64,000 bases of DNA from Klenkia soli (GTDB lineage Bacteria > Actinomycetota > Actinomycetes > Mycobacteriales > Geodermatophilaceae), in the NCBI RefSeq assembly GCF_900103975.1, contig NZ_FNIR01000003.1, positions 1-64,000 on the forward strand, read 5' to 3'. Position 1 is the stretch's first letter. Each line of letters opens with the position of its first letter. A program made the translations under genes and the position numbers. The notes below the pieces were generated by a model. It was not told the DNA's origin. It made no database searches and saw only the letters and a program-made list of their open reading frames with translations. Positions 3,424 to 13,050 of this stretch are shown piece by piece.

Positions 3424-4617
3424 TCAGCCCATGAGCGCGGCCACGGCCAGCCCCAGGTGCAGCCGGAGCCGGGTGGCGCCGTCGTCCAGGTCGGCGCCGG
3501 TCACCTCGCGGACGCGGTCGAGCCGGTAGTGCAGCGTCGTCCGGTGCACGTGCAGGGCGTCGGCCGCGGCGGGCGCGTTGCCGCCGGCGTCCAGCCAGGC
3601 CGCCAGGGTCGTGGTGAGCCGGCCCTGCGGGTCGGCGGCCCGGAGCGCCACCAGCTCGGGGGGCAGCGCGGTCGCGTCCCACTCGTCGGCCGGCACCCGG
3701 AGCAGGACGGCGTGCACCCCCAGCGTGGTGCCGTCGACCACGGGACCCGGGGCGAGCCGGGGCGCCGCGCGGGTGGCCAGCTCGGCGAACCGGTACGAGG
3801 TCCGGGCCTCGGCGAGCCCCGTGACGGCCGGCCCCGTGCCGGCCACGCAGCCGAACCGCCCGGCGGCCACCGCTTCGGCCTCGGCCACCGCCCGGGCAGC
3901 GAGCTCGGCGACGACGGCGTCGTCCAGGGGGCCGGTGGTGATCAGCACCCCGGTGCCGCCGGCCGGGCCGGCGGTGGCCAGCACCGTCGTCCCGGGCCGT
4001 GACCCCAGCGTGGCGAGCCCGCGCCGGGCCGCGGCCTGCGCCTGCTCCGCGTCGTCGGCGGCCACACCGCGCAGCGCCAGCACGACGGCGCGCACGTGCC
4101 GATCGGCCGGCACCGTCCCGGCCAGCTCCGCGATCGCCCGCCCCCGGCCGACCGGGTCGGTCGACAGCAGAGCAGCCACGGCGACCTCCCGGGCACGCGT
4201 TGCGGCGTCGGCGGCGTGCCGGTCCGCGGCGAGGACGGCGGCCAGCTCCTGCGCCGCCGAGTCGATCAGCCCGGTCTCGGCGTTGCCCAACGCCGTCCGG
4301 GCATCGATCACCATGAGCAGGCCCAGCAGCTCACCGCGCCAGCGCAGCGGCACGCACCACCGCGGGTGCATGCCGATGCCCGGCTGCGCCGGGATCCAGC
4401 CGGCCCGCGGCCACCCGGCCACCCCGGCGCCCAGCACGTGCGCCACCGCTGCGCTGCCCGCGTCCCGCTGCAGGACCGCCCGCACCCGGACGTCGTCCTC
4501 GTCGCCGAAGTGCCGGCTGGTGGCCACCAGGCGGACCTCCGGGTCGTCGACGACGACGGAGCGCTGCAGCTGCTCGGCGAGGGAGTCCACCAGCTGCTGC
4601 AGCCGGTCGGAGGGCAC
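3424..4617 (-). CDS. PucR-type helix-turn-helix transcriptional regulator
   Basis: A 397-residue regulator with the PucR C-terminal HTH: DAGGNAPAAADALHVHRTTLHYRLDRV over roughly residues 340-370. In the family this is a Fis-like domain that binds DNA near purine, amino acid or aromatic catabolic genes. The N-terminal two thirds look like a GAF-type sensory region followed by the GGDEF-like domain seen in PucR/CdaR proteins. It lies upstream of the hydrolase-SDR-DUF1349 operon on the same strand, so local regulation of that operon is a reasonable guess. The ATG at 4617 sits 9 bases downstream of the polymerase gene's stop. Confidence 0.85.
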   Translation of the reverse strand: MPSDRLQQLVDSLAEQLQRSVVVDDPEVRLVATSRHFGDEDDVRVRAVLQRDAGSAAVAHVLGAGVAGWPRAGWIPAQPGIGMHPRWCVPLRWRGELLGLLMVIDARTALGNAETGLIDSAAQELAAVLAADRHAADAATRAREVAVAALLSTDPVGRGRAIAELAGTVPADRHVRAVVLALRGVAADDAEQAQAAARRGLATLGSRPGTTVLATAGPAGGTGVLITTGPLDDAVVAELAARAVAEAEAVAAGRFGCVAGTGPAVTGLAEARTSYRFAELATRAAPRLAPGPVVDGTTLGVHAVLLRVPADEWDATALPPELVALRAADPQGRLTTTLAAWLDAGGNAPAAADALHVHRTTLHYRLDRVREVTGADLDDGATRLRLHLGLAVAALMG

Positions 4618-4626
4618 GCGCGGATC

Positions 4627-6321
4627 CTAGGGCCCGTCGGGTGGGACACCGTCGTCCTCGGGGGCGTCGGCGTCCGCCCACGACCGGACGACCGCGACGT
4701 CGAGCGGGAAGTCCACGGGGAAGCCGCCGAACAGCAACCGGCCGGCCTCGACGGCGGACGCGCGGACGGCGCTCACCACGTCGTCGGCGAGCCCGACGGG
4801 GGTGTGCACCACCACCTCGTCGTGCAGGAAGAACACCAGGTGCGGCCGGTCGGTGAGGCCGCCCTCGCCGATCCGCCACAACCGGTTGCGCAGGTCGGCC
4901 AGCCAGCACGACGCCCACTCGGCACCGGTGCCCTGCACGACGAAGTTGCGGGTGAACCGGCCCCACGCCCGCCGCCGGGCATCGGCGGCCCGGCCGGCAG
5001 CGGCGTCGTCGGACCCCCCGCCGAACGCCCCCGGGCGCGGCGACCCCCGGCCGAGCAGCGTGGTCACCACCTCGCCGCGCTCACCGGCCCGGGCCGCCTG
5101 CTCGACCAGCCCGACGGCGGCCGGGTAGGCGCGGGTGAGCCGGGGCAGCATGGCCCCGCTCTCGCCGCGGGTGCCGCCGTACATCGCGCCGAGGATGCCC
5201 AGCTTGGCCTGGCTGCGGGTCTCGACGGCACCGCTGTCGACCATCCCCTGGTACAGGTCGCGGGCCCGGGCCGCCTCGGCCATCGCGGTGTCCCGGCTCA
5301 TGCCGGCCAGCACCCGGGGCTCGAGCTGCGCGACGTCGGCCACCACGAACCGCCAGCCCTCGTCGGCGACGGCGGCCGGCCGCAGCTGCACCGGCGCGCT
5401 GAGCGCACCGCCGCCCGAGGCCGCCCAGCGTCCGGTGACCACCCCGCCGGGCACGAACACCGGCCGGAACCGGCCGTCGCGCACCCAGGTGTCCAGCCAC
5501 GCCCACCCGTTCGCCTGCATCAGCCGCAGCAGCTTCTTGTAGCGCAGCAGCGGTTCGATGCCCGGGTGCTCGAGCTCGGCCAAGGTCCACTGCCGGGTGT
5601 CGGTGACCGCCAGCCCGGCGGCCTGCAGCGAGGCCAGCAACCCGGTGGGGGAGTCGGGGTTCATCGCCGGTTGGCCGAACGCGGCCCGGATCTCGGGCAG
5701 CAACCGCTCGAGCTCGGCGGGGCGCTGACCGGCCACCGGACGCGGGCCCAGCAGGTCGGTCAGCAACCGGTCGTGGACGTCGGCCCGCCACGGCATGCCG
5801 GCGTGCTGCATCTCCGCGGCGACCAGACCCGCGGCCGACTCGGCGGCCACCAGCAGCCCCAGCCGCGCGCGCTCGGCACTCGCGGCCAGCGTCGCCTGCT
5901 GCCGGGCCAGCTCGGCCGCCGGGTCGAGGAGGTCGGCGGGGTCGGCGAGGGCGAACAGCGCCGGCTCGGACGCCGTCACGGGCGCCAGGGCGTCCCACCC
6001 CTCGGTGTCGGGCCCGGTCAGCAGCCCCTGGTCGGCGTGCGGGGACCGGCGCAGGACGGCGTGGGCCAGCCGCAGGTCGGTGCACCGCTCGACCCGGACC
6101 CCGGCGGCCAGCAGCTCCGGGTACCAGCGGGTGGTGTCGTCCCACACCCAGCGCGGCCGGTCGACCTCCCGCGCCACGACCCAGGCGGCGAGCTCACCGC
6201 GCGGGAGGACGGTCACCCCGGCGTCGGCGTGGGCCTCGACGTCGTCCCCCCGACGCACGAGGAGGACCGGTCGCAGCACCGGGCCAGTGTCGTCCAGGGG
6301 TACGACGACGACGCGGTGCAC
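4627..6321 (-). CDS. bifunctional 3'-5' exonuclease/DNA polymerase (family A)
   Basis: A 564-residue protein matching the actinobacterial stand-alone family A polymerases that carry an N-terminal exonuclease-like domain. Polymerase motif A is VVADVAQLEPR (about residues 324-336), motif B is QAKLGILGAMYGG (about 370-383) and motif C is FFLHDEVVVH (about 496-506), supplying the two metal-binding aspartates and the HDE. The upstream frame stays open for more than 1 kb, but homologous length and the divergent dioxygenase favour the GTG at 6321. Family A enzymes without the PolA 5' nuclease are thought to act in repair. It shares an 84-base divergent promoter region with the intradiol dioxygenase. 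Confidence 0.9.
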   Translation of the reverse strand: MHRVVVVPLDDTGPVLRPVLLVRRGDDVEAHADAGVTVLPRGELAAWVVAREVDRPRWVWDDTTRWYPELLAAGVRVERCTDLRLAHAVLRRSPHADQGLLTGPDTEGWDALAPVTASEPALFALADPADLLDPAAELARQQATLAASAERARLGLLVAAESAAGLVAAEMQHAGMPWRADVHDRLLTDLLGPRPVAGQRPAELERLLPEIRAAFGQPAMNPDSPTGLLASLQAAGLAVTDTRQWTLAELEHPGIEPLLRYKKLLRLMQANGWAWLDTWVRDGRFRPVFVPGGVVTGRWAASGGGALSAPVQLRPAAVADEGWRFVVADVAQLEPRVLAGMSRDTAMAEAARARDLYQGMVDSGAVETRSQAKLGILGAMYGGTRGESGAMLPRLTRAYPAAVGLVEQAARAGERGEVVTTLLGRGSPRPGAFGGGSDDAAAGRAADARRRAWGRFTRNFVVQGTGAEWASCWLADLRNRLWRIGEGGLTDRPHLVFFLHDEVVVHTPVGLADDVVSAVRASAVEAGRLLFGGFPVDFPLDVAVVRSWADADAPEDDGVPPDGP

Positions 6322-6405
6322 AGCGAGGCCACAGGTGTCGCTGCCCGCGCGCAGGGCGCGGTGCCGCACCGTCGTCCCGACACCGCACGCGGGAGAAGGA
6401 GACAC

Positions 6406-7401
6406 ATGCGCAGCGACCGGACACCGACCTACGAGGGCCGCCCCCTGGCCCGGCCCGACGAGGAGGTCGTCGACCAGGGCCTGCAGTTCGACCTGGGCAC
6501 GCTGGTGACCCGCCGCCGGGTGCTGGGGTTCCTCGGGGTCGGCGCGGCCACCGTCGGCCTGGCCGCCTGCGGCGGCACCTCCAGCACCTCCACGGCGGCG
6601 TCCGCCACGGCCACCTCCGCGGCCGGCACGACGACCGGTGCCGCGGCGACGTCGAGCGGGGAGATCCCCGAGGAGACCGCCGGGCCGTACCCGGGCGACG
6701 GGTCGAACGGGGCGAACGTGCTGACCGAGAGCGGCATCGTCCGCTCCGACATCCGCAGCAGCTTCGGCTCGGCGTCGGGCACCGCCGAGGGCGTGCCGAT
6801 GACCCTCACGCTGATCGTGCAGGACCTGGCGAACGGCGTGCCGTTCGAGGGCGCCGCCGTCTACGTCTGGCACTGCGACCGGGACGGGAACTACTCCCTC
6901 TACTCCCAGGGCATCACCGAGGAGAACTACCTGCGCGGGGTCCAGGTGGCCGACGCCGACGGGCAGGTCACCTTCACCAGCATCTTCCCGGCCTGCTACT
7001 CCGGCCGCTGGCCGCACATCCACTTCGAGGTCTACCCGGACGTCGACTCGATCACCGACTCGACCGCCGCGATCGCCACGTCGCAGGTCGCCCTGCTGCA
7101 GGACGTCTGCGAGACCGTCTACGCGACCAGCGGCTACGAGCAGTCGGTGACCAACCTCGGCCAGATCAGCCTGGCCACCGACAACGTGTTCTCCGACGGG
7201 TCGGAGCTGGAGACCCCGACCATCACCGGCGACGTGTCCGCGGGCTTGGCCGTGGCCATGGACGTCGGGGTGGACACCACCACCGCGGCCGGTGGCGGCG
7301 GTTCGGCCCCGGCCGGCGGCGGTGGTGGTGGTGCGGGTGGCCCCGGCGGTGGCGGCACCCCGCCGTCCGGTGCCCCCGGTGGTGCACCGCCGACGAGCTA
7401 G
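6406..7401 (+). CDS. exported intradiol ring-cleavage dioxygenase-like lipoprotein
   Basis: A 331-residue protein with a twin-arginine-like signal (RRRVLGFLG, residues 36-44) ending in a lipobox LAAC (Cys55), so it is predicted to be a Tat-exported lipoprotein. The catalytic domain has the non-haem Fe(III) ligand pattern of intradiol dioxygenases: Tyr163 in WHCDRDGNYS, Tyr198, His204 and His206 in CYSGRWPHIHFE. The C-terminus is a Gly/Pro/Ala-rich tail of about 50 residues. Extracytoplasmic members are common in actinobacteria and their substrates are poorly known. A strong RBS (GGGAGAAGGAG) precedes the ATG. Its stop codon shares the tetranucleotide CTAG with the convergent LigA-like gene. 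Confidence 0.9.
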   Translation: MRSDRTPTYEGRPLARPDEEVVDQGLQFDLGTLVTRRRVLGFLGVGAATVGLAACGGTSSTSTAASATATSAAGTTTGAAATSSGEIPEETAGPYPGDGSNGANVLTESGIVRSDIRSSFGSASGTAEGVPMTLTLIVQDLANGVPFEGAAVYVWHCDRDGNYSLYSQGITEENYLRGVQVADADGQVTFTSIFPACYSGRWPHIHFEVYPDVDSITDSTAAIATSQVALLQDVCETVYATSGYEQSVTNLGQISLATDNVFSDGSELETPTITGDVSAGLAVAMDVGVDTTTAAGGGGSAPAGGGGGGAGGPGGGGTPPSGAPGGAPPTS

Positions 7402-7757
7402 GTGGCGATGTCCGGGTAGGGCTGGGTCACGTGGTCCAGCGCCCGGGCGTACGCCAGCTGGTACTCCATCGGCCCGTGGTCGCGCTCGAAGAGGGCGATG
7501 AACAGCGTCAGCGTGAGGAACGGGTGCGCTCCCATGCCGAACAGGGCCACGTGGTCGTGCTCGGCCAGTGCTCGGCGCTCCTCGTCGGTGAACGCCAGCC
7601 AGGTGGTCTGCTCGGCCGGGATGCAGTTCAGCAGCGACCCGGCCAGGTTCGCCTCCCACCAGGCGACCAGCTCGACGGGGTCCTCGCGGTACCGCTCGGT
7701 GAGCTCGGGGTCGCGGTCCACCGAGTAGAGGAACTTGTCGACCAGGTACTTGCTCAC
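7398..7757 (-). CDS. LigA-like small subunit of class III extradiol dioxygenase
   Basis: A 119-residue all-helical protein of the protocatechuate 4,5-dioxygenase alpha-subunit (LigA) family: LVDKFLYSVDRDPEL, then a helix containing ERRALAEHDHVALFGMGAHPF. In LigAB-type enzymes the small subunit caps the active site of the catalytic LigB subunit. The ATG overlaps the LigB-like stop by 4 bases (ATGA), so both subunits are probably translated together. It is the last gene of a four-gene leftward operon. Confidence 0.9.
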   Translation of the reverse strand: MSKYLVDKFLYSVDRDPELTERYREDPVELVAWWEANLAGSLLNCIPAEQTTWLAFTDEERRALAEHDHVALFGMGAHPFLTLTLFIALFERDHGPMEYQLAYARALDHVTQPYPDIAT

Positions 7758-8638
7758 GATGTCTCCTCCGCCCGACCCGGAACCCGACCTCCGGGGTACC
7801 AGGTGAAGTAGGCCTCCATGGTGTGGAACAGGTCCACCGTCTCCACGAAGTCCGCCGGCACGCCGTCGCCGGCCGCGCCCATCATCAGCATGAAGTCCAT
7901 GAACCCGTGGGTGGCGTTCCCCGGCGCGTGCAGGCTGTCCAGGCTGACCTCGGCCAGGCAGCCCTCGATGTCACCGGAGGCGATCCAGTCGACGGCCTTG
8001 CGGTCGAACACGGGATCCGGGCCGGTGGGGCCGAACTGGCGGGGCCCGCCCAGCTCCAGCGACAGGTGCCCGGTGCCGATGATCGCCACCCGCAGGTCGG
8101 ACTCCCACGACTCGACCATCTCGCGGATCGCCCGGCCGAGCGCCACGAACCGGCGGGGCTGGGGGAGCGGCGGGGCGAAGATGTTGGTGTAGACCGGCAC
8201 GATCGGCAGGTCGGCCTCGGGCCGCAGCGTGATGATCGGGCAGGTGATGCTGTGGTCGATCCGCAGCTCGTTGGAGAAGGCCAGGTCGAAGTCCCGGTCC
8301 AGGCCGTCGCGCAGCAGGTGCGCCGCGAGCTCCTCCTGCCCGGTCAACCGCATCCGCGGCAGCCCGAACTCCCGCTCCTCGTTGTGCCAGTTGGCGTCGA
8401 AGAACGGCGCCTTGCCGACCAGGAACTGCGGCATGTTGTCCAGCCACAGCTGGTGGAAGTGGTCGCTGCCGACCATCACCAGGACGTCGGGCCGGGCCGC
8501 GGTCAGCGTCTCCCGGAACGACTCGATCTTGGCGATCCACTCGGCCGCGAACGGCGGCCGCTCGGCCTCGGGCATGGTCGAGGTCTTGTAGTAGAACGGG
8601 TGGTGGGTGGACGCGACGACGGCGCAGACCTCAGCCAC
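7754..8638 (-). CDS. LigB-like catalytic subunit of class III extradiol dioxygenase
   Basis: A 294-residue LigB-family enzyme that, with the adjacent LigA-like subunit, should cleave a catechol or gallate-type ring next to the hydroxyls using Fe(II). Metal-ligand and active-site candidates visible are the histidines in STHHPFYY, in VGSDHFHQ and in GTGHLSLE. Known substrates of the family include protocatechuate, gallate and 2,3-dihydroxyphenyl derivatives. The exact substrate cannot be assigned here. The gene overlaps the citryl-CoA-lyase-like gene by 8 bases and the small-subunit gene by 4, indicating one polycistronic unit. Confidence 0.9.
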   Translation of the reverse strand: MAEVCAVVASTHHPFYYKTSTMPEAERPPFAAEWIAKIESFRETLTAARPDVLVMVGSDHFHQLWLDNMPQFLVGKAPFFDANWHNEEREFGLPRMRLTGQEELAAHLLRDGLDRDFDLAFSNELRIDHSITCPIITLRPEADLPIVPVYTNIFAPPLPQPRRFVALGRAIREMVESWESDLRVAIIGTGHLSLELGGPRQFGPTGPDPVFDRKAVDWIASGDIEGCLAEVSLDSLHAPGNATHGFMDFMLMMGAAGDGVPADFVETVDLFHTMEAYFTWYPGGRVPGRAEETS

Positions 8639-9443
8639 GGGGGCCCCTCTCGTACGGGTCGGGGTCGACCGAGCGGTTGTTCAGGTCGACGGACAGGAAG
8701 ACGTCGTTGGCCACGGGGTGCCGCAGCTCCTCGGCCAACTGGCCGATCAGCCCGGCGGTGCGGGCCAGCAGGGCGAACCCGCGCAGCAGCTCCAGCGGCA
8801 GGCCCAGGTCGGCCAGCGCCGCGCCGCAGACGCCGGCGCCGTTGAGCGGCAGGGTCTTGCCGAGCACCTGGGGGTGCACCCGGCCGATGGCGGCGAACAG
8901 CGACAGGTGCGGGCCGACCAGGCCCTCCTCGGTCGCGATCTCGAACAGCCGGGGGGTGCGCGGGTCGCCGTCCTTGTGCACGTGGTGGCCCAGGCCCGGC
9001 ACGAACCGTCTCGCCTCGCGCTCGCGCTGCACTGTGGCCAGCGCGAGGGCGTCCCAACCGGCGTCGTCGGTGGGCAGCTCGTCGGCCGCGACCAGGACGT
9101 CGTCCAGGAACCGGCCGCAGTCCTCGGTGACGCCGAGGAACCGGGAGCCGCCGCCCAGCAGGCCGGCGGCCAGCGCACCCTGCACGGAGTCCGGGGCGGA
9201 GAGGTAGGTCAGCCGGGTGACGATCGCCGTGGGGGTGAAGCCGTGGTCGGCCAGCGCGGCCAGCACGGCCTCGAACACCCGGGTCTCGCCGGGGGAGGGC
9301 CGGCGCTGGGTGGCCAGCCAGAACGCCAGCTCGCCGAACCCGACGGTGCCCATGACGTCGCGGGCCAGGTCGGTGCCCAGCAAGGTGATCGTGTCGCGGG
9401 TGGAGGCGCCCAGCGCCGTCTCGTACCGCCGCGATTCGGTCAT
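8631..9443 (-). CDS. citryl-CoA lyase-like protein (citrate synthase superfamily)
   Basis: A 270-residue protein of the citrate synthase fold, much shorter than true citrate synthase (about 370-430 residues). It retains the signature region GLGHHVHKDGDPR, with the catalytic-type His, and GAGVCGAALADLG. Proteins of this size are usually annotated as citryl-CoA lyases, which split a citryl- or citramalyl-type CoA thioester into a 2-oxo acid and an acyl-CoA. Coupling to a CoA-transferase (ATGA overlap) and to extradiol dioxygenase subunits suggests it cleaves a CoA-activated ring-cleavage product. That assignment is inference from context. Confidence 0.82.
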   Translation of the reverse strand: MTESRRYETALGASTRDTITLLGTDLARDVMGTVGFGELAFWLATQRRPSPGETRVFEAVLAALADHGFTPTAIVTRLTYLSAPDSVQGALAAGLLGGGSRFLGVTEDCGRFLDDVLVAADELPTDDAGWDALALATVQREREARRFVPGLGHHVHKDGDPRTPRLFEIATEEGLVGPHLSLFAAIGRVHPQVLGKTLPLNGAGVCGAALADLGLPLELLRGFALLARTAGLIGQLAEELRHPVANDVFLSVDLNNRSVDPDPYERGPRG

Positions 9444-10588
9444 GCCGGCCCCGCCAGCCAGGTGCGGATCTCGTCGCCGTGCTCGTCCAGCCCGGGCGGG
9501 GGGAGCCGGTAGGAGGCGGCCGTGGCCGAGAAGGTGATCGGGTTGCGGATGGAGGGGATGCCGCCGACCCGGACGACGGGGTCCAGCCCCACCTCCTCGG
9601 CGAAGGCGACCCCGGCGTCGACGGTGTTGATCGGCCCGCACGGCACCCCGGCGGCGATGATCTCGCGGAACCACTCCTGCTTGCCCTTGCGCGCGAGCTG
9701 CTCCACCAGCAGTGGTCGGAGCTCGTCGCGGTTCGCGGTGCGGTCCTCGTTGCGGGCGAACCGGGGGTCGTCGGCGAGCTCGGGGACGCCGAGCACCTCG
9801 ACCAGCTTGCGGAACTGGCCGTTGTTGCCGGCGGTGATGATCAGCTCGCCGTCGGCGCACTGCAGCGGCTCGTAGGGGAACAGCGACGGGTGGCTGTTGC
9901 CCATGCGGAAGGGCACCGTCTCGCCGGCCACGGCGGCCGACGTCTGGTTGACCATGCCGCTCAGCGCGGAGGACAGCAGGTTGACCTCGACGTGCTGCCC
10001 GACGCCGGTCTCGTGCCGCAGGTTCAGCGCGGACAGGACCCCGATGGTGGCGTGCAGCCCCGCCATCACGTCGAACACCGCGACGCCGGCGCGGTAGGGC
10101 TCGCCGTCGGTGGGCCCGGTGAGGCTCATCAGGCCGGAGATGGCCTGCACGATCAGGTCGTAGCCGGGCAGCGCGGCGCCGCCCGGGCCGCTGCCGAAGC
10201 CGGAGATCGAGGCGTAGACGATCCGCGGGTTCGTGGCGGCGACGGTGTCGTAGTCCAGGCCGAAGCGGGCCAGGCCGCCGGGCTTGAAGTTCTCCACCAC
10301 GACGTCGGCGCGGCGGGCCAGCTCCTGCGCGGCGGCCACGTCGGTGGGGTCCTTGAGGTCCAGGGCGACCGAGCGCTTGTTCCGGTTCACGCCCAGGTAG
10401 TAGGTGGCGACGTCGTCGCGCACGGGCGGCGCCCAGGTGCGGGTGTCGTCGCCGCCGGGGCCCTCGACCTTGACCACCTCTGCACCCAGGTCGGCCAGCA
10501 GCATCGTGGCGTAGGGGCCGGCCAGGATGCGGGAGAAGTCGGCGACCAGGAGGCCGGCGAGCGGGCCGGACGGCGCGGGATCGGTCAT
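9440..10588 (-). CDS. CaiB/BaiF family CoA-transferase
   Basis: A 382-residue family III CoA-transferase. Family marks are the N-terminal VADFSRILAGPYATMLLADLGAEVVKVE, the NRNKRSVALDLK loop and GYDLIVQA, which carries the catalytic Asp that forms the acyl-enzyme anhydride. Such enzymes move CoA between carboxylic acids. It is the first gene of the leftward operon with the lyase and dioxygenase genes. A GAGGAG sequence lies about 13 bases before the ATG at 10588; an in-frame ATG at 10642 is an alternative. A 14-bp perfect palindrome (10616-10629) sits just upstream and is the likely regulator site. Confidence 0.88.
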   Translation of the reverse strand: MTDPAPSGPLAGLLVADFSRILAGPYATMLLADLGAEVVKVEGPGGDDTRTWAPPVRDDVATYYLGVNRNKRSVALDLKDPTDVAAAQELARRADVVVENFKPGGLARFGLDYDTVAATNPRIVYASISGFGSGPGGAALPGYDLIVQAISGLMSLTGPTDGEPYRAGVAVFDVMAGLHATIGVLSALNLRHETGVGQHVEVNLLSSALSGMVNQTSAAVAGETVPFRMGNSHPSLFPYEPLQCADGELIITAGNNGQFRKLVEVLGVPELADDPRFARNEDRTANRDELRPLLVEQLARKGKQEWFREIIAAGVPCGPINTVDAGVAFAEEVGLDPVVRVGGIPSIRNPITFSATAASYRLPPPGLDEHGDEIRTWLAGPA

Positions 10589-10615
10589 CAGGGGGGTGGC
10601 ACTCCTCGGTCTGCT

Positions 10616-10629
10616 CGGACAGCTGTCCG
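10616..10629. promoter_or_regulatory. palindromic operator, CoA-transferase side
   Basis: The sequence CGGACAGCTGTCCG is a perfect 14-bp palindrome 28 bases upstream of the CoA-transferase start. The same half-sites, CGGACA-NN-TGTCCG, recur in front of the divergent amidohydrolase gene at 10738-10753. The likely ligand is the IclR protein encoded at 12232-13050, by analogy with IclR regulators that bind near the catabolic operons they adjoin. Confidence 0.62.
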
Positions 10630-10669
10630 TGGTGATCGGCATCGCAGTCTCACCACGCGAGGACCGGGC

Positions 10670-10698
10670 TGTCAACCGACCGCACGGACCTCTTGACA
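10670..10698. promoter_or_regulatory. back-to-back -35 boxes of divergent promoters
   Basis: TGTCAA (10670-10675) and TTGACA (10693-10698) form a perfect inverted pair 17 bases apart. Each is a consensus -35 hexamer, reading left toward the CoA-transferase operon and right toward the amidohydrolase. The -10 regions at the expected distances are weak, as expected for activated or repressed promoters. The two operator palindromes lie outside this pair, one on each side. Confidence 0.5.
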
Positions 10699-10737
10699 GG
10701 TGGTGCGCGTCACGACCAAGGTGGCGCAGACCGTTCT

Positions 10738-10753
10738 GCGGACACCTGTCCGC
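10738..10753. promoter_or_regulatory. palindromic operator, amidohydrolase side
   Basis: GCGGACA-CC-TGTCCGC is a perfect inverted repeat with 7-bp arms, ending 18 bases before the amidohydrolase start. It shares the core CGGACA-NN-TGTCCG with the site at 10616-10629, so one regulator probably controls both divergent transcripts. Confidence 0.62.
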
Positions 10754-10771
10754 TGCATTCCCGAGGAGACG

Positions 10772-12232
10772 ATGATGTCCACCCCCGACGCCCGGCCCGT
10801 GGTCCTCCGCGGCGGCACCGTGCTGACCATGGACGACGCGCACACCGTCCTCCCGCAGGGCGACGTCCTCGTGGTGGACGGGAAGGTCGCCGCGGTCGGT
10901 GCGCACCTCGACGTCCCCGAGGGCACCCAGGAGGTCGACGCCACCGGCGGCGTCGTCATGCCCGGGATGGTCGACACCCACCGGCACATGTGGCAGACCG
11001 CGATGCGCGGCTACGGCGCCGACTGGACCCTCACCCAGTACTTCGTCTGGTACTACCTCGAGCACGGCAAGACCTTCCGCCCCGAGGACGTGCACGCCGG
11101 CAACCTGCTGAGCGCGTGGGAGGGCCTGGAGGCCGGCGTCACCACCACGGTCGACTGGAGCCACGGGCTGCAGAGCGTCGACCACGCCGAGGCCGCCGCC
11201 GACGCCCTGCTCGCCGTCCCCGGCCGGTTCGTCCTGGCCTACGGCAACATCCAGGCCGGGCCCTGGGAGTGGACCGCCGACCCGGCCGTGCAGGCGTTCC
11301 TGGAGCGGCGCGCCGACGAGGGCAGGCTCGGCCTGCAGCTGGCCTTCGACGTCACCGGCGACCCGGCGTTCCCGGAGAAGGCCGCCTTCGAGGTCGCCCG
11401 CGAGCTCGGCCTGCCGGTGACCACGCACGCCGGGGTGTGGGGCGCGACGTCCGACGCCTCGATCCAGCTCATGCACGACGCCGGGTTCATGACCCCCGAG
11501 ACGGTCTACGTGCACGCCGCCTCGCTGAGCACCGACAGCTACCAGCGGATCGCCGCCACCGGCGGTTCGGTCTCGGTGTCCACCGAGAGCGAGCAGAGCG
11601 CCGGGCAGGGCTACCCGCCCACCTGGCAGGTGCGCAAGCACGGCATCCCGGTGTCGCTGTCGATGGACACCAGCGTGTGGTGGTCGGCCGACCTGTTCTC
11701 CGCCATGCGCACCACGCTGGGCGCCGACCGCTCGCGCGAGCACCTCGAGGCCCACGTCGAGGGCAACACCGTCACCCAGGTCCACCTGCGGGCCGAGCAG
11801 GTCGTCGACTGGGCCACCCGCGGCGGCGCCCGCGCGCTGGGCCGCGACGACCTGGGCTCGCTCGAGCCGGGCAAGACCGCCGACGTCGTGCTGATCAAGA
11901 ACGACTCCTCGCCGGTGTCGTTCCCGCTGCTGAACCCCTACGGCCACGTGGCCTTCCAGGCCCAGCGCGGCGACGTGCACACCGTGCTGGTCGGCGGCCG
12001 GGTCGTGAAGAGCGAGGGCCGGCTCGTGGGCTACGACGGCACCGCGGTGCGGTCGGCCGTCGAGAGCACCGTCGAGCACCTGCGCGGGGCCATGGGCGAG
12101 GAGACGTGGCAGGCCGGCATGAACCCGGCGATGCCCGAGGACGGCGACGACGTGCTCGACAATCCCTACACCTACACCGACTACAAGAGCGAGGACACCC
12201 ACGGCGCCCGGGGCTCGCTGTTCGGCGACTGA
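10772..12232 (+). CDS. amidohydrolase family protein (metal-dependent, deaminase-like)
   Basis: A 486-residue amidohydrolase-superfamily protein with a cytosine-deaminase/AtzB-like pattern. It has the metal ligand pair THRH (His70, His72), later histidines in TTHAG and YVHAAS, and an Asp in SLSMDTSVWW. Such enzymes hydrolyse C-N or C-Cl bonds, often deaminating an aromatic or heterocyclic amine. The start is one of two adjacent ATG codons (10772 or 10775); CGAGGAG upstream fits the second slightly better. Its stop overlaps the IclR start (TGATG). Context suggests it prepares the substrate for the divergent ring-cleavage operon, but the substrate is unknown. Confidence 0.85.
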   Translation: MMSTPDARPVVLRGGTVLTMDDAHTVLPQGDVLVVDGKVAAVGAHLDVPEGTQEVDATGGVVMPGMVDTHRHMWQTAMRGYGADWTLTQYFVWYYLEHGKTFRPEDVHAGNLLSAWEGLEAGVTTTVDWSHGLQSVDHAEAAADALLAVPGRFVLAYGNIQAGPWEWTADPAVQAFLERRADEGRLGLQLAFDVTGDPAFPEKAAFEVARELGLPVTTHAGVWGATSDASIQLMHDAGFMTPETVYVHAASLSTDSYQRIAATGGSVSVSTESEQSAGQGYPPTWQVRKHGIPVSLSMDTSVWWSADLFSAMRTTLGADRSREHLEAHVEGNTVTQVHLRAEQVVDWATRGGARALGRDDLGSLEPGKTADVVLIKNDSSPVSFPLLNPYGHVAFQAQRGDVHTVLVGGRVVKSEGRLVGYDGTAVRSAVESTVEHLRGAMGEETWQAGMNPAMPEDGDDVLDNPYTYTDYKSEDTHGARGSLFGD

Positions 12233-13050
12233 TGGCCGGCCGCGGGCGTGGGCCGGACTTCGTCGAAGCGCTGGCCCGCGGGCTGGAGGTGCTCACCGCG
12301 TTCACCGCCGACCGCCCGACGATGACGCTGAGCCAGGTGGCCGCCGCCACCGACCTGGCCCGGCCCACCGCCCGCCGGCTGCTGCTCACCCTGGAGGAGC
12401 TCGGCTACGTGGCGGCCGGGCCGAGCCGCTACGCGCTCACCCCCAAGGTGCTCGACCTCGGCATGGCCTACGTGGGCTCGTTGGGGCTGTGGGACATCGC
12501 CCGGCCGCACCTGGAGGCGCTGGTCGCGCGCACGGGGGAGTCCTCGTCGATGGCGCAGCTGGACGGGTCGGACATCGTCTACGTCGCCCGGGTCGCCGTC
12601 CCGAAGCTGATCACGCTCCGGGTCGAGATCGGCACCCGCTTCCCGGCGGTGCAGACCTCCCAGGGCAAGGTGCTGCTCGCCGCCCTGGTGCCCGACGAGC
12701 TGGCCGCGGTGCTGGCCGAGCCGTCGCGGTCGGGGTTGCCCCGGTACATCGGCCGGACGACGGAGCAGCTGCACGACGAGCTGACCGAGGTGCGGGCGCG
12801 CGGCTGGGCGCTGGCCGACGAGGAGCTGGCGCCCGGCGTGCGGTCGGTCGCCGTCCCGGTGCGCGACGGCACGGGCACGGTGCGCGCGGCCGCCAACGTC
12901 ACGGTGCACGCCGCCGAGACCAGCCGGGAGACCCTGCTGGAGGACCACCTGCCGCTGCTGCTGCGTGCGGCGGGCCAGATCAGCGGCGACTGGGCGGCGT
13001 GGCAGCGCCGGCCGCACGTGGAGGTGGCCGCCCGCCCGCGCACCGCCTGA
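12232..13050 (+). CDS. IclR family transcriptional regulator
   Basis: A 272-residue IclR-type regulator. The N-terminal winged HTH reads TLSQVAAATDLARPTARRLLLTLEELGYV (about residues 31-60) and the C-terminal effector domain has GESSSMAQLDG and ARGWALADEELAPGVRSVAVPV, the PcaU/PobR-like signature. IclR proteins of the Pca/Pob subgroup commonly control aromatic-acid degradation. It overlaps the amidohydrolase stop by one base and so is co-expressed with it. It probably binds the two CGGACA-NN-TGTCCG palindromes between the divergent operons. Confidence 0.92.
   Translation: MAGRGRGPDFVEALARGLEVLTAFTADRPTMTLSQVAAATDLARPTARRLLLTLEELGYVAAGPSRYALTPKVLDLGMAYVGSLGLWDIARPHLEALVARTGESSSMAQLDGSDIVYVARVAVPKLITLRVEIGTRFPAVQTSQGKVLLAALVPDELAAVLAEPSRSGLPRYIGRTTEQLHDELTEVRARGWALADEELAPGVRSVAVPVRDGTGTVRAAANVTVHAAETSRETLLEDHLPLLLRAAGQISGDWAAWQRRPHVEVAARPRTA

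Follow-up and report, generated by a model that had tools for sequence, protein, structure and literature searches.

A conserved divergent gene block of Klenkia soli as a candidate module for the CoA-dependent breakdown of polyhydroxylated aromatic rings

In a simple catechol, the bond cleaved by an extradiol dioxygenase is not the one cleaved by an intradiol dioxygenase. Where a ring carries three adjacent oxygens, however, a single bond counts as extradiol with respect to one pair of oxygens and as intradiol with respect to the other, so that enzymes of both classes can yield one product. What follows ring cleavage also differs among the pathways, that of β-ketoadipate ending with the PcaIJ transferase and the PcaF thiolase. 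The bacterial gallate route is summarized in PMC10512348, and a DUF3500 protein is the putative ring-cleavage enzyme of a fungal pathway for 1,2,3,5-tetrahydroxybenzene (THB) (PMC12388069). Here, a stretch of 64,000 nucleotides of Klenkia soli (NCBI RefSeq assembly GCF_900103975.1, contig NZ_FNIR01000003.1, positions 1 to 64,000; the window in the following) is considered for a divergent block of six genes at positions 7398–13050. Genes for a CaiB/BaiF-type CoA-transferase (CaiB), for a citrate-synthase-fold protein resembling citryl-CoA lyase (CCL) and for LigB- and LigA-like proteins lie on the minus strand, and those for an amidohydrolase and an IclR-type regulator on the plus strand. On balance, sequence comparison makes it probable, by a modest measure, that the block serves, under local regulation, the catabolism of a polyhydroxylated ring of the hydroxyquinol type and has a CoA-dependent ending, THB being the favoured form of the substrate; support is moderate for the class of chemistry and weak for the exact substrate.

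The minus-strand genes are arranged as an operon, read from 10588 down to 7398 in the order CaiB, CCL, LigB and LigA; successive genes have 4, 8 and 4 bases in common, and the amidohydrolase and IclR genes one. The features are as follows.

7398–7757, minus strand: LigA-like small subunit, 119 amino acids (match to PF07746 weak alone; relatives match)
7754–8638, minus strand: LigB-like candidate ring-cleavage subunit, 294 amino acids (PF02900; predicted fold nearest LigAB, 1bou_B)
8631–9443, minus strand: CCL, citryl-CoA-lyase-like protein of the citrate synthase fold, 270 amino acids, with LNGAG replacing LNVDG (PF00285; NF004868)
9440–10588, minus strand: CaiB/BaiF (family III) CoA-transferase (PF02515; an alternative upstream start at 10642 is possible)
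10616–10629, no strand: operator-like palindrome CGGACAGCTGTCCG (CGGACA-N2-TGTCCG motif)
10739–10752, no strand: operator-like palindrome CGGACACCTGTCCG (CGGACA-N2-TGTCCG motif)
10775–12232, plus strand: AtzA/TrzN-like amidohydrolase, 485 amino acids (PF01979; alternative ATG start at 10772)
12232–13050, plus strand: IclR-type regulator of the PcaR/PcaU/PobR branch (PF01614, PF09339; NCBIfam model below cut-off)

The block is a real and widespread catabolic module. A scan of genome contigs for LigB gave 363 relatives, the best 80 of which (79–98% identity) were taken as loci; by record title all 80 are from actinobacteria bar one labelled Proteobacteria, and the closest, 97–98% identical, is from Klenkia terrae. 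Counted anywhere in each stretch, with several loci cut by contig ends, LigA was called in 79 of the 80, CaiB in 77, CCL in 76, IclR in 70 and the amidohydrolase in 69. In 74 loci the four genes from CaiB to LigA are contiguous on one strand, and in 68 the amidohydrolase is divergent and no more than three genes away from CaiB, the position of IclR being variable. The six-gene divergent arrangement, which the original prediction had read from this one sequence, is thus conserved, and the comparison across actinobacterial genomes that it had called for finds the block common, with relatives in rhizobia. In 60 loci a seventh, quinone-oxidoreductase-like gene, absent from the window, lies up to three genes after LigB; the one member tested is similar to PIG3-type quinone oxidoreductases, with a score under the model cut-off. 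Apart from it, no further family is found next to the block in more than nine of the 80 loci, in agreement with the earlier remark that the standard hydratase and aldolase ending is missing.

In the 112 genomes of the window's own family, a close CCL is found in 85, at 86 places, a few of them fragments. More distant LigB proteins (59–65% identity) are encoded on plasmids of rhizobia and other alphaproteobacteria, and in Aminobacter MSH1, Martelella and Sinorhizobium B11 annotated CCL and CoA-transferase genes adjoin LigB. In one Klenkia genome (G078, contig 1, about 4.590 Mb) the CCL and LigB matches come in pieces, and the block looks decayed or mis-sequenced.

The proposal draws on the replacement of LigBA, in sister species, by an unrelated dioxygenase of the intradiol class. 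At the 86 CCL places of the family, LigB alone is present in 37, the intradiol gene alone in 40, both in two and neither in seven, where neither means no LigB or block-type intradiol gene within 6 kb on the contig of the CCL and several of the seven lie at contig ends; the exclusion has a p value of 7e-15 in Fisher's exact test, which ignores kinship. The original prediction had regarded a usual location of the CaiB–CCL pair away from LigAB as grounds for refutation; about half of the family's CCL places are indeed away from it, but nearly all of those have the intradiol gene in its place. Within the genus itself, genomes G000, G079, G081 and G083 carry LigBA, and G076, G077, G080 and G082 carry the intradiol enzyme together with CCL proteins 90–92% identical to that of the window. 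A quick tree was built from 103 CCL proteins, with several long branches flagged; on it, the LigB/intradiol state changes five times, at least four of the changes being forced by well-supported branches. Outside the family, three genomes of a phylum-wide sample have the CaiB–CCL pair followed by an intradiol dioxygenase with no LigBA there. Two Rhodococcus plasmids share one cluster order, namely hydroxylase, α/β-hydrolase, divergent amidohydrolase (34–35% identical to that of the block), CaiB, CCL, either LigB–LigA or the intradiol gene, a LeuD-type small subunit and further genes; one of the two records is unannotated, and some of the genes were paired by eye.

The replacing enzyme scores highest with PnpC (254 bits) and hydroxyquinol 1,2-dioxygenase (241 bits), far above catechol (109 bits) and protocatechuate (35 bits) enzymes, and the Klenkia copy gives a similar score pattern. 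A quinone-oxidoreductase-like gene lies between CCL and the intradiol gene in loci L007, L012 and L028, so that an initial impression that it is restricted to the LigBA version proved wrong. Likewise, a Phe-to-Leu exchange in the intradiol active site (F108 of 1tmx) was considered as a hint of a larger substrate and then dropped, since this Leu is also present in the genome's own classical dioxygenase.

If LigBA and the intradiol enzyme perform the same step, as we infer from the swap, they should break the same bond, which calls for a ring with three adjacent oxygens; the hydroxyquinol type of the replacing enzyme suggests, in addition, that the ring has no carboxyl group and bears one more hydroxyl in the para position. 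The two features together lead to THB or its methoxy relatives. Every reaction in the scheme that follows, like its substrate, is a proposal drawn from such comparisons. THB, the best guess at the substrate, or a methoxylated precursor would be opened by LigBA in the window, by the intradiol enzyme in sister species and perhaps by a third enzyme in a few others, to give 2,4-dihydroxymuconate (tautomeric with 2,4-dioxoadipate) or the lactone formed from it. This lactone would be opened by the amidohydrolase, for which LigI, a lactonase of the amidohydrolase superfamily, offers an analogy; alternatively, the amidohydrolase would act earlier by removing a ring substituent, perhaps a methoxy group. 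CaiB would then load the acid onto CoA to give a β-keto-acyl-CoA, and the CCL-like enzyme would cleave it by a hydrolytic retro-Claisen reaction into acetyl-CoA and oxaloacetate, the same two products as those of citryl-CoA lyase. The order of ring cleavage, CoA transfer and action of a citrate-synthase-fold enzyme is the part of the original prediction that comparison supports; the citramalate-like acid it had named as the CoA acceptor finds no support.

CCL matches PF00285 with 57 bits and NCBIfam model NF004868 with 271.5 bits (cut-off 193). It was aligned with the solved citryl-CoA lyase 6hxp, whose catalytic residues we take to be the His of PGxGH and the Asp of NVDG; in all of 104 distinct relatives with at least 60% identity, the His is retained and the Asp position of LNVDG is Ala (LNGAG). 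CaiB matches PF02515 with 372 bits, its nearest NCBIfam model, that of succinate–glutarate CoA-transferase, remaining below cut-off; an Asp in its FDVMaG stretch, presumably the conserved Asp of family III CoA-transferases, is at least 95% conserved in 78 aligned proteins.

The amidohydrolase matches PF01979 with 97.8 bits, and its metal ligands H69, H71, H218, H247 and D298 are invariant in 28 proteins. Equally invariant in the 28 is a THAGVWG sequence at the place of the β-5 HxxE motif, which lacks the Glu of deaminases and chlorohydrolases (e.g. E241 of TrzN). Deamination of an aromatic amine as a first step, as originally imagined, is unsupported, that Glu being missing. A displacement of a methoxy group is conceivable since AtzA and TrzN are among the nearest structures. 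The regulator matches PF01614 and PF09339 and falls nearest the PcaR/PcaU/PobR branch (254.7 bits, below the cut-off of 284.75). The stretch between CaiB and the amidohydrolase has CGGACA-N2-TGTCCG twice, and at least one such site is present in 66 of 77 loci, the window included, compared with 0.013 sites per equal stretch of background in the same loci, when one mismatch is allowed in the ten fixed bases and the search runs from 300 bases upstream of the called CaiB start to 60 bases downstream of it. In the whole genome, the only exact matches are the two promoter copies; a search for further regulon genes found no other exact site and, with one mismatch, nine places as opposed to 13 for the reversed-pattern control. 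The regulator is probably local to the block, and would control the divergent promoter by binding both palindromes.

The neighbourhoods of related loci add some colour to the proposed substrate. A P450 gene occurs in four of the 80 loci, the one tested being close to CYP199A4, an O-demethylase; a gene annotated as FMN reductase is found in the Aminobacter cluster, and a few loci encode hydroxylases resembling PobA or MhpA. Together with the quinone-oxidoreductase-like gene, these fit easily oxidized, sometimes methoxylated phenols. By eye, a malyl-CoA lyase-like gene and genes resembling both malate-CoA ligase subunits follow the block and a P450 in locus L088 (12732–15732), hinting at assimilation of one-carbon units after O-demethylation. 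A single-domain methionine-synthase-like gene lies beside the block in six of the 80 loci, and another in the Aminobacter cluster (L037, L039, L061, L063, L075, L080 and L181). A route of the nicotine type through 2,3,6-trihydroxypyridine was considered when a gene like that of DHPON hydrolase (2jbw) was met in one Rhodococcus cluster, and was set aside because the gene does not recur in the 80 loci.

Several observations weigh against this interpretation, and the proteins themselves provide the first. LigB belongs to its family beyond question (PF02900, 96 bits, cut-off 26.3), and a Foldseek search with its predicted structure (mean pLDDT 82) gave 1bou_B of LigAB as the nearest match (TM 0.78, E 1e-18); confidence is low around residues 61–65 and 194–200, so that the geometry of the active site is not readable from the model. 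In LigAB we take His195 to be catalytic and His12, His61 and Glu242 to be metal ligands. Profile–profile alignment places Leu194 of the window's LigB in the column of His195, with His191 three residues earlier, and Gly245 in that of the iron ligand Glu242; the two His ligands are kept, as H12 and H60. With the Asp of CCL missing as well, either enzyme could carry out other chemistry, and the family name is no proof of function for LigB, CCL or the amidohydrolase. That residues catalytic in the namesakes are absent from both LigB and the lyase had escaped the original prediction. The amidohydrolase step is a guess by analogy, and THB is reached, weakly, by chemical logic, no gene of the block being diagnostic for it.

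A second group of observations concerns gene content. Both dioxygenases are present in G028 and G037 of the family count and in the fetched loci L035 and L039, the two loci being as expected of transitional states. The stretches read round CaiB–CCL in Rhodococcus rhodochrous BX2 and G180 have no LigBA or intradiol gene; there, and in G234, a VOC-family gene lies beside CaiB, the BX2 and G180 proteins being 65% identical. The VOC proteins are above the cut-off of the general glyoxalase/dioxygenase family (PF00903) with no specific dioxygenase model passed, so that a third ring-cleaving class in a few genomes is perhaps to be considered, as a guess; none was found in 42 further genomes of a class-wide sample, in a search run without a positive control. 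LigBA occurs without CCL or the CoA-transferase in the stretches read from plasmids of Rhizobium johnstonii and Rhizobium Q54, and in genome G294 of the phylum sample the block's LigB lies at a contig end with CCL not found. Rhizobial LigBA pairs without CaiB and CCL also lie, in L182 and L189, near annotated P450s, α/β-hydrolases, cytochrome c peroxidases and sensor kinases, that of L182 being VirA-like; these neighbourhoods suggest that rhizobial LigBA is used on plant phenolics.

CCL, in turn, is found without either dioxygenase. In the class-wide sample of 394 genomes, a strong CCL (at least 400 bits) is present in 43, namely the window's own and 42 others. Among the 42, 23 have the block's LigB (22 of them on the same contig within 5 kb) and eight the block-type intradiol gene, G760 having both, with the intradiol gene beside a CCL fragment; 12 have neither. 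In six of these 12 (L207, L208, L213, L214, L215 and L217) CCL adjoins an AMP-binding acyl-CoA ligase, CaiB was not detected in the stretches, some of them short, of any of the 12, and a distant VOC gene is near CCL in L207 and L213. The link of CCL with ring cleavage is therefore not universal. More distant CCL relatives are found, in Cupriavidus, as a pair with CaiB beside LeuCD and, in Pseudosulfitobacter, in an operon whose annotations include methylcrotonoyl-CoA carboxylase and HMG-CoA lyase.

The LeuD genes lead to the alternative that survives best, unlikely as we consider it: that the substrate is hydroxyquinol, which LigBA and the intradiol enzyme would both convert to maleylacetate, CaiB to the CoA ester and the CCL-like enzyme to acetyl-CoA and maleate, or to succinate if the quinone-oxidoreductase-like protein acts as a reductase. 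The swapped enzyme is of the hydroxyquinol type, and a LeuD-type protein, a possible part of a maleate hydratase, is encoded in both Rhodococcus clusters (above the NF002458 cut-off in L193, annotated in L183, no LeuC annotation being present in the L183 stretch), as are LeuCD beside the Cupriavidus pair; the scheme based on THB does not account for the lone LeuD. However, ordinary extradiol cleavage of hydroxyquinol would give a semialdehyde rather than maleylacetate, in which case the swap would not be neutral, and plain hydroxyquinol seems to be served elsewhere in the genome, where a separate hydroxyquinol-type dioxygenase adjoins a maleylacetate reductase (L203). That dioxygenase gene (L203, 12551–13417) has a similar counterpart in L204 (7863–8732), the reductase lying beside the first only. 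By eye, two similar catechol-dioxygenase-like clusters with cycloisomerase-like genes are also found on contig 8 of the genome (L202, about 104–124 kb), with transposase-like genes near and a possible duplication.

Gallate or pyrogallol would satisfy the demand for a vicinal triol from which both enzyme classes make one product, and the nearest solved relatives of LigB are LigAB and the gallate dioxygenase DesB. The product would be 4-oxalomesaconate (or 2-hydroxymuconate), which the amidohydrolase would hydrate, the hydration product resembling citrate, with CoA transfer and a CCL-type cleavage replacing the aldolase. This we hold to be improbable, since the replacing enzyme resembles dioxygenases of the non-carboxylated hydroxyquinol and stands well apart from protocatechuate 3,4-dioxygenases, and since release of acetyl-CoA would leave 2,4-dioxoglutarate, an awkward product. 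Moreover, the block of Modestobacter lapidis (L068) directly adjoins a second, more canonical LigAB-like pair (4083–5292), the LigB of which is 33% identical to that of the block.

No better placed is the possibility that LigBA is not an oxygenase at all and that it and the intradiol enzyme catalyse different steps on different substrates, CaiB and CCL being a shared, promiscuous ending. The absence of His195 and Glu242, the occurrence of CCL with acyl-CoA ligases and the four genomes or loci with both dioxygenases would all agree with it. Against it stands the near-perfect mutual exclusion in an otherwise unchanged cluster. Furthermore, LigB retains His12, His60 and His129, and the motifs carrying the new His191 (TGHLS-type) and His244 (NATHG) are present in 98 of 98 distinct LigB proteins at 55% identity or more, none of which has the canonical GGxSH; two more distant proteins (K84 and G379) keep His191 and not His244. 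This pattern suggests a live metal site. As to its partner, the window's LigA matches PF07746 at E 0.22, and 11 of 12 aligned members match the same model, at best with E 5e-7. The LigA and LigB family names and the branch of the regulator might speak for a 4,5-cleavage operon of the ordinary kind, for protocatechuate or gallate, the neighbours of which have been wrongly annotated. This reading is disfavoured to the point of being very improbable, since on LigB every NCBIfam class III dioxygenase model stays below its cut-off (at best a score of 128 where 290 is required, and for gallate dioxygenase 83 where 412 is required), the recurrent neighbour families are lacking as described and the replacing intradiol enzyme is of the wrong type.

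Beside the block, on the plus strand and convergent with LigA, the window encodes a protein with an intradiol dioxygenase domain (6229–7401; PF00775, 38 bits), in which an N-terminus of Tat-like and lipobox-like character and a tail rich in Gly were seen by eye; it is probably unrelated to the block. It is followed towards the contig start by a bifunctional 3'-5' exonuclease/DNA polymerase gene on the minus strand (4627–6258; NF011538, 668 bits, above cut-off).

Returning to THB, the block points to an undescribed route for the breakdown of plant phenolics. In a wider form, which is doubtful and offered tentatively, it might be a bacterial central pathway for THB-type rings derived from syringyl, gallate or phloroglucinol compounds, in which a LigB-fold dioxygenase with a rebuilt metal site, whose place a hydroxyquinol-type intradiol enzyme and perhaps one of the VOC family could take, would precede an Asp-less, citrate-synthase-fold hydrolytic retro-Claisenase acting on 3,5-dioxoadipyl-CoA to give acetyl-CoA and oxaloacetate directly. 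If so, carbon from syringyl lignin and flavonoids would gain a bacterial route outside current maps, and the citrate synthase and LigB folds would each gain a new catalytic variant. The swap amounts to a natural experiment, sister species carrying the same operon with unrelated ring-cleaving enzymes, and a comparison of their products would fix the substrate.

Set beside known systems, the module appears to be undescribed: among the literature matches listed, judged by title and start of abstract and with subscription journals mostly outside, none describes the block, in agreement with the earlier statement that no characterized pathway has this combination of genes. With the LigAB, GalA and DesB pathways the block shares the LigB fold, the LigA-type partner and the class III extradiol family; it differs from them in a LigB without His195 and Glu242, in having a CoA-transferase and a citrate-synthase-fold enzyme with no recurrent hydratase/aldolase ending, and in the replacement of LigBA by an intradiol enzyme in sister species. 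The hydroxyquinol pathway is approached through the type of the replacing dioxygenase and the quinone-reductase-like genes often linked to the block, whereas maleylacetate reductase is not recurrent beside it and the classical pair lies elsewhere in the genome. Citryl-CoA lyase (PRK06224) and CCL have in common the fold family, the NF004868 match and the His of PGxGH, and are set apart by the Ala that takes the place of the NVDG Asp in CCL and its relatives. The ending of the β-ketoadipate pathway is similar in logic to the one proposed, CoA being transferred to the acid from ring cleavage and a carbon–carbon bond then broken with release of acetyl-CoA, and unrelated in its enzymes, the block having a family III CoA-transferase and a citrate-synthase-fold lyase. 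Finally, the fungal central pathway of THB (PMC13094099, PMC12388069) resembles the proposal in its substrate and type of ring-cleavage product, and departs from it in a DUF3500 candidate enzyme that is, by name, unrelated to the dioxygenases of the block.

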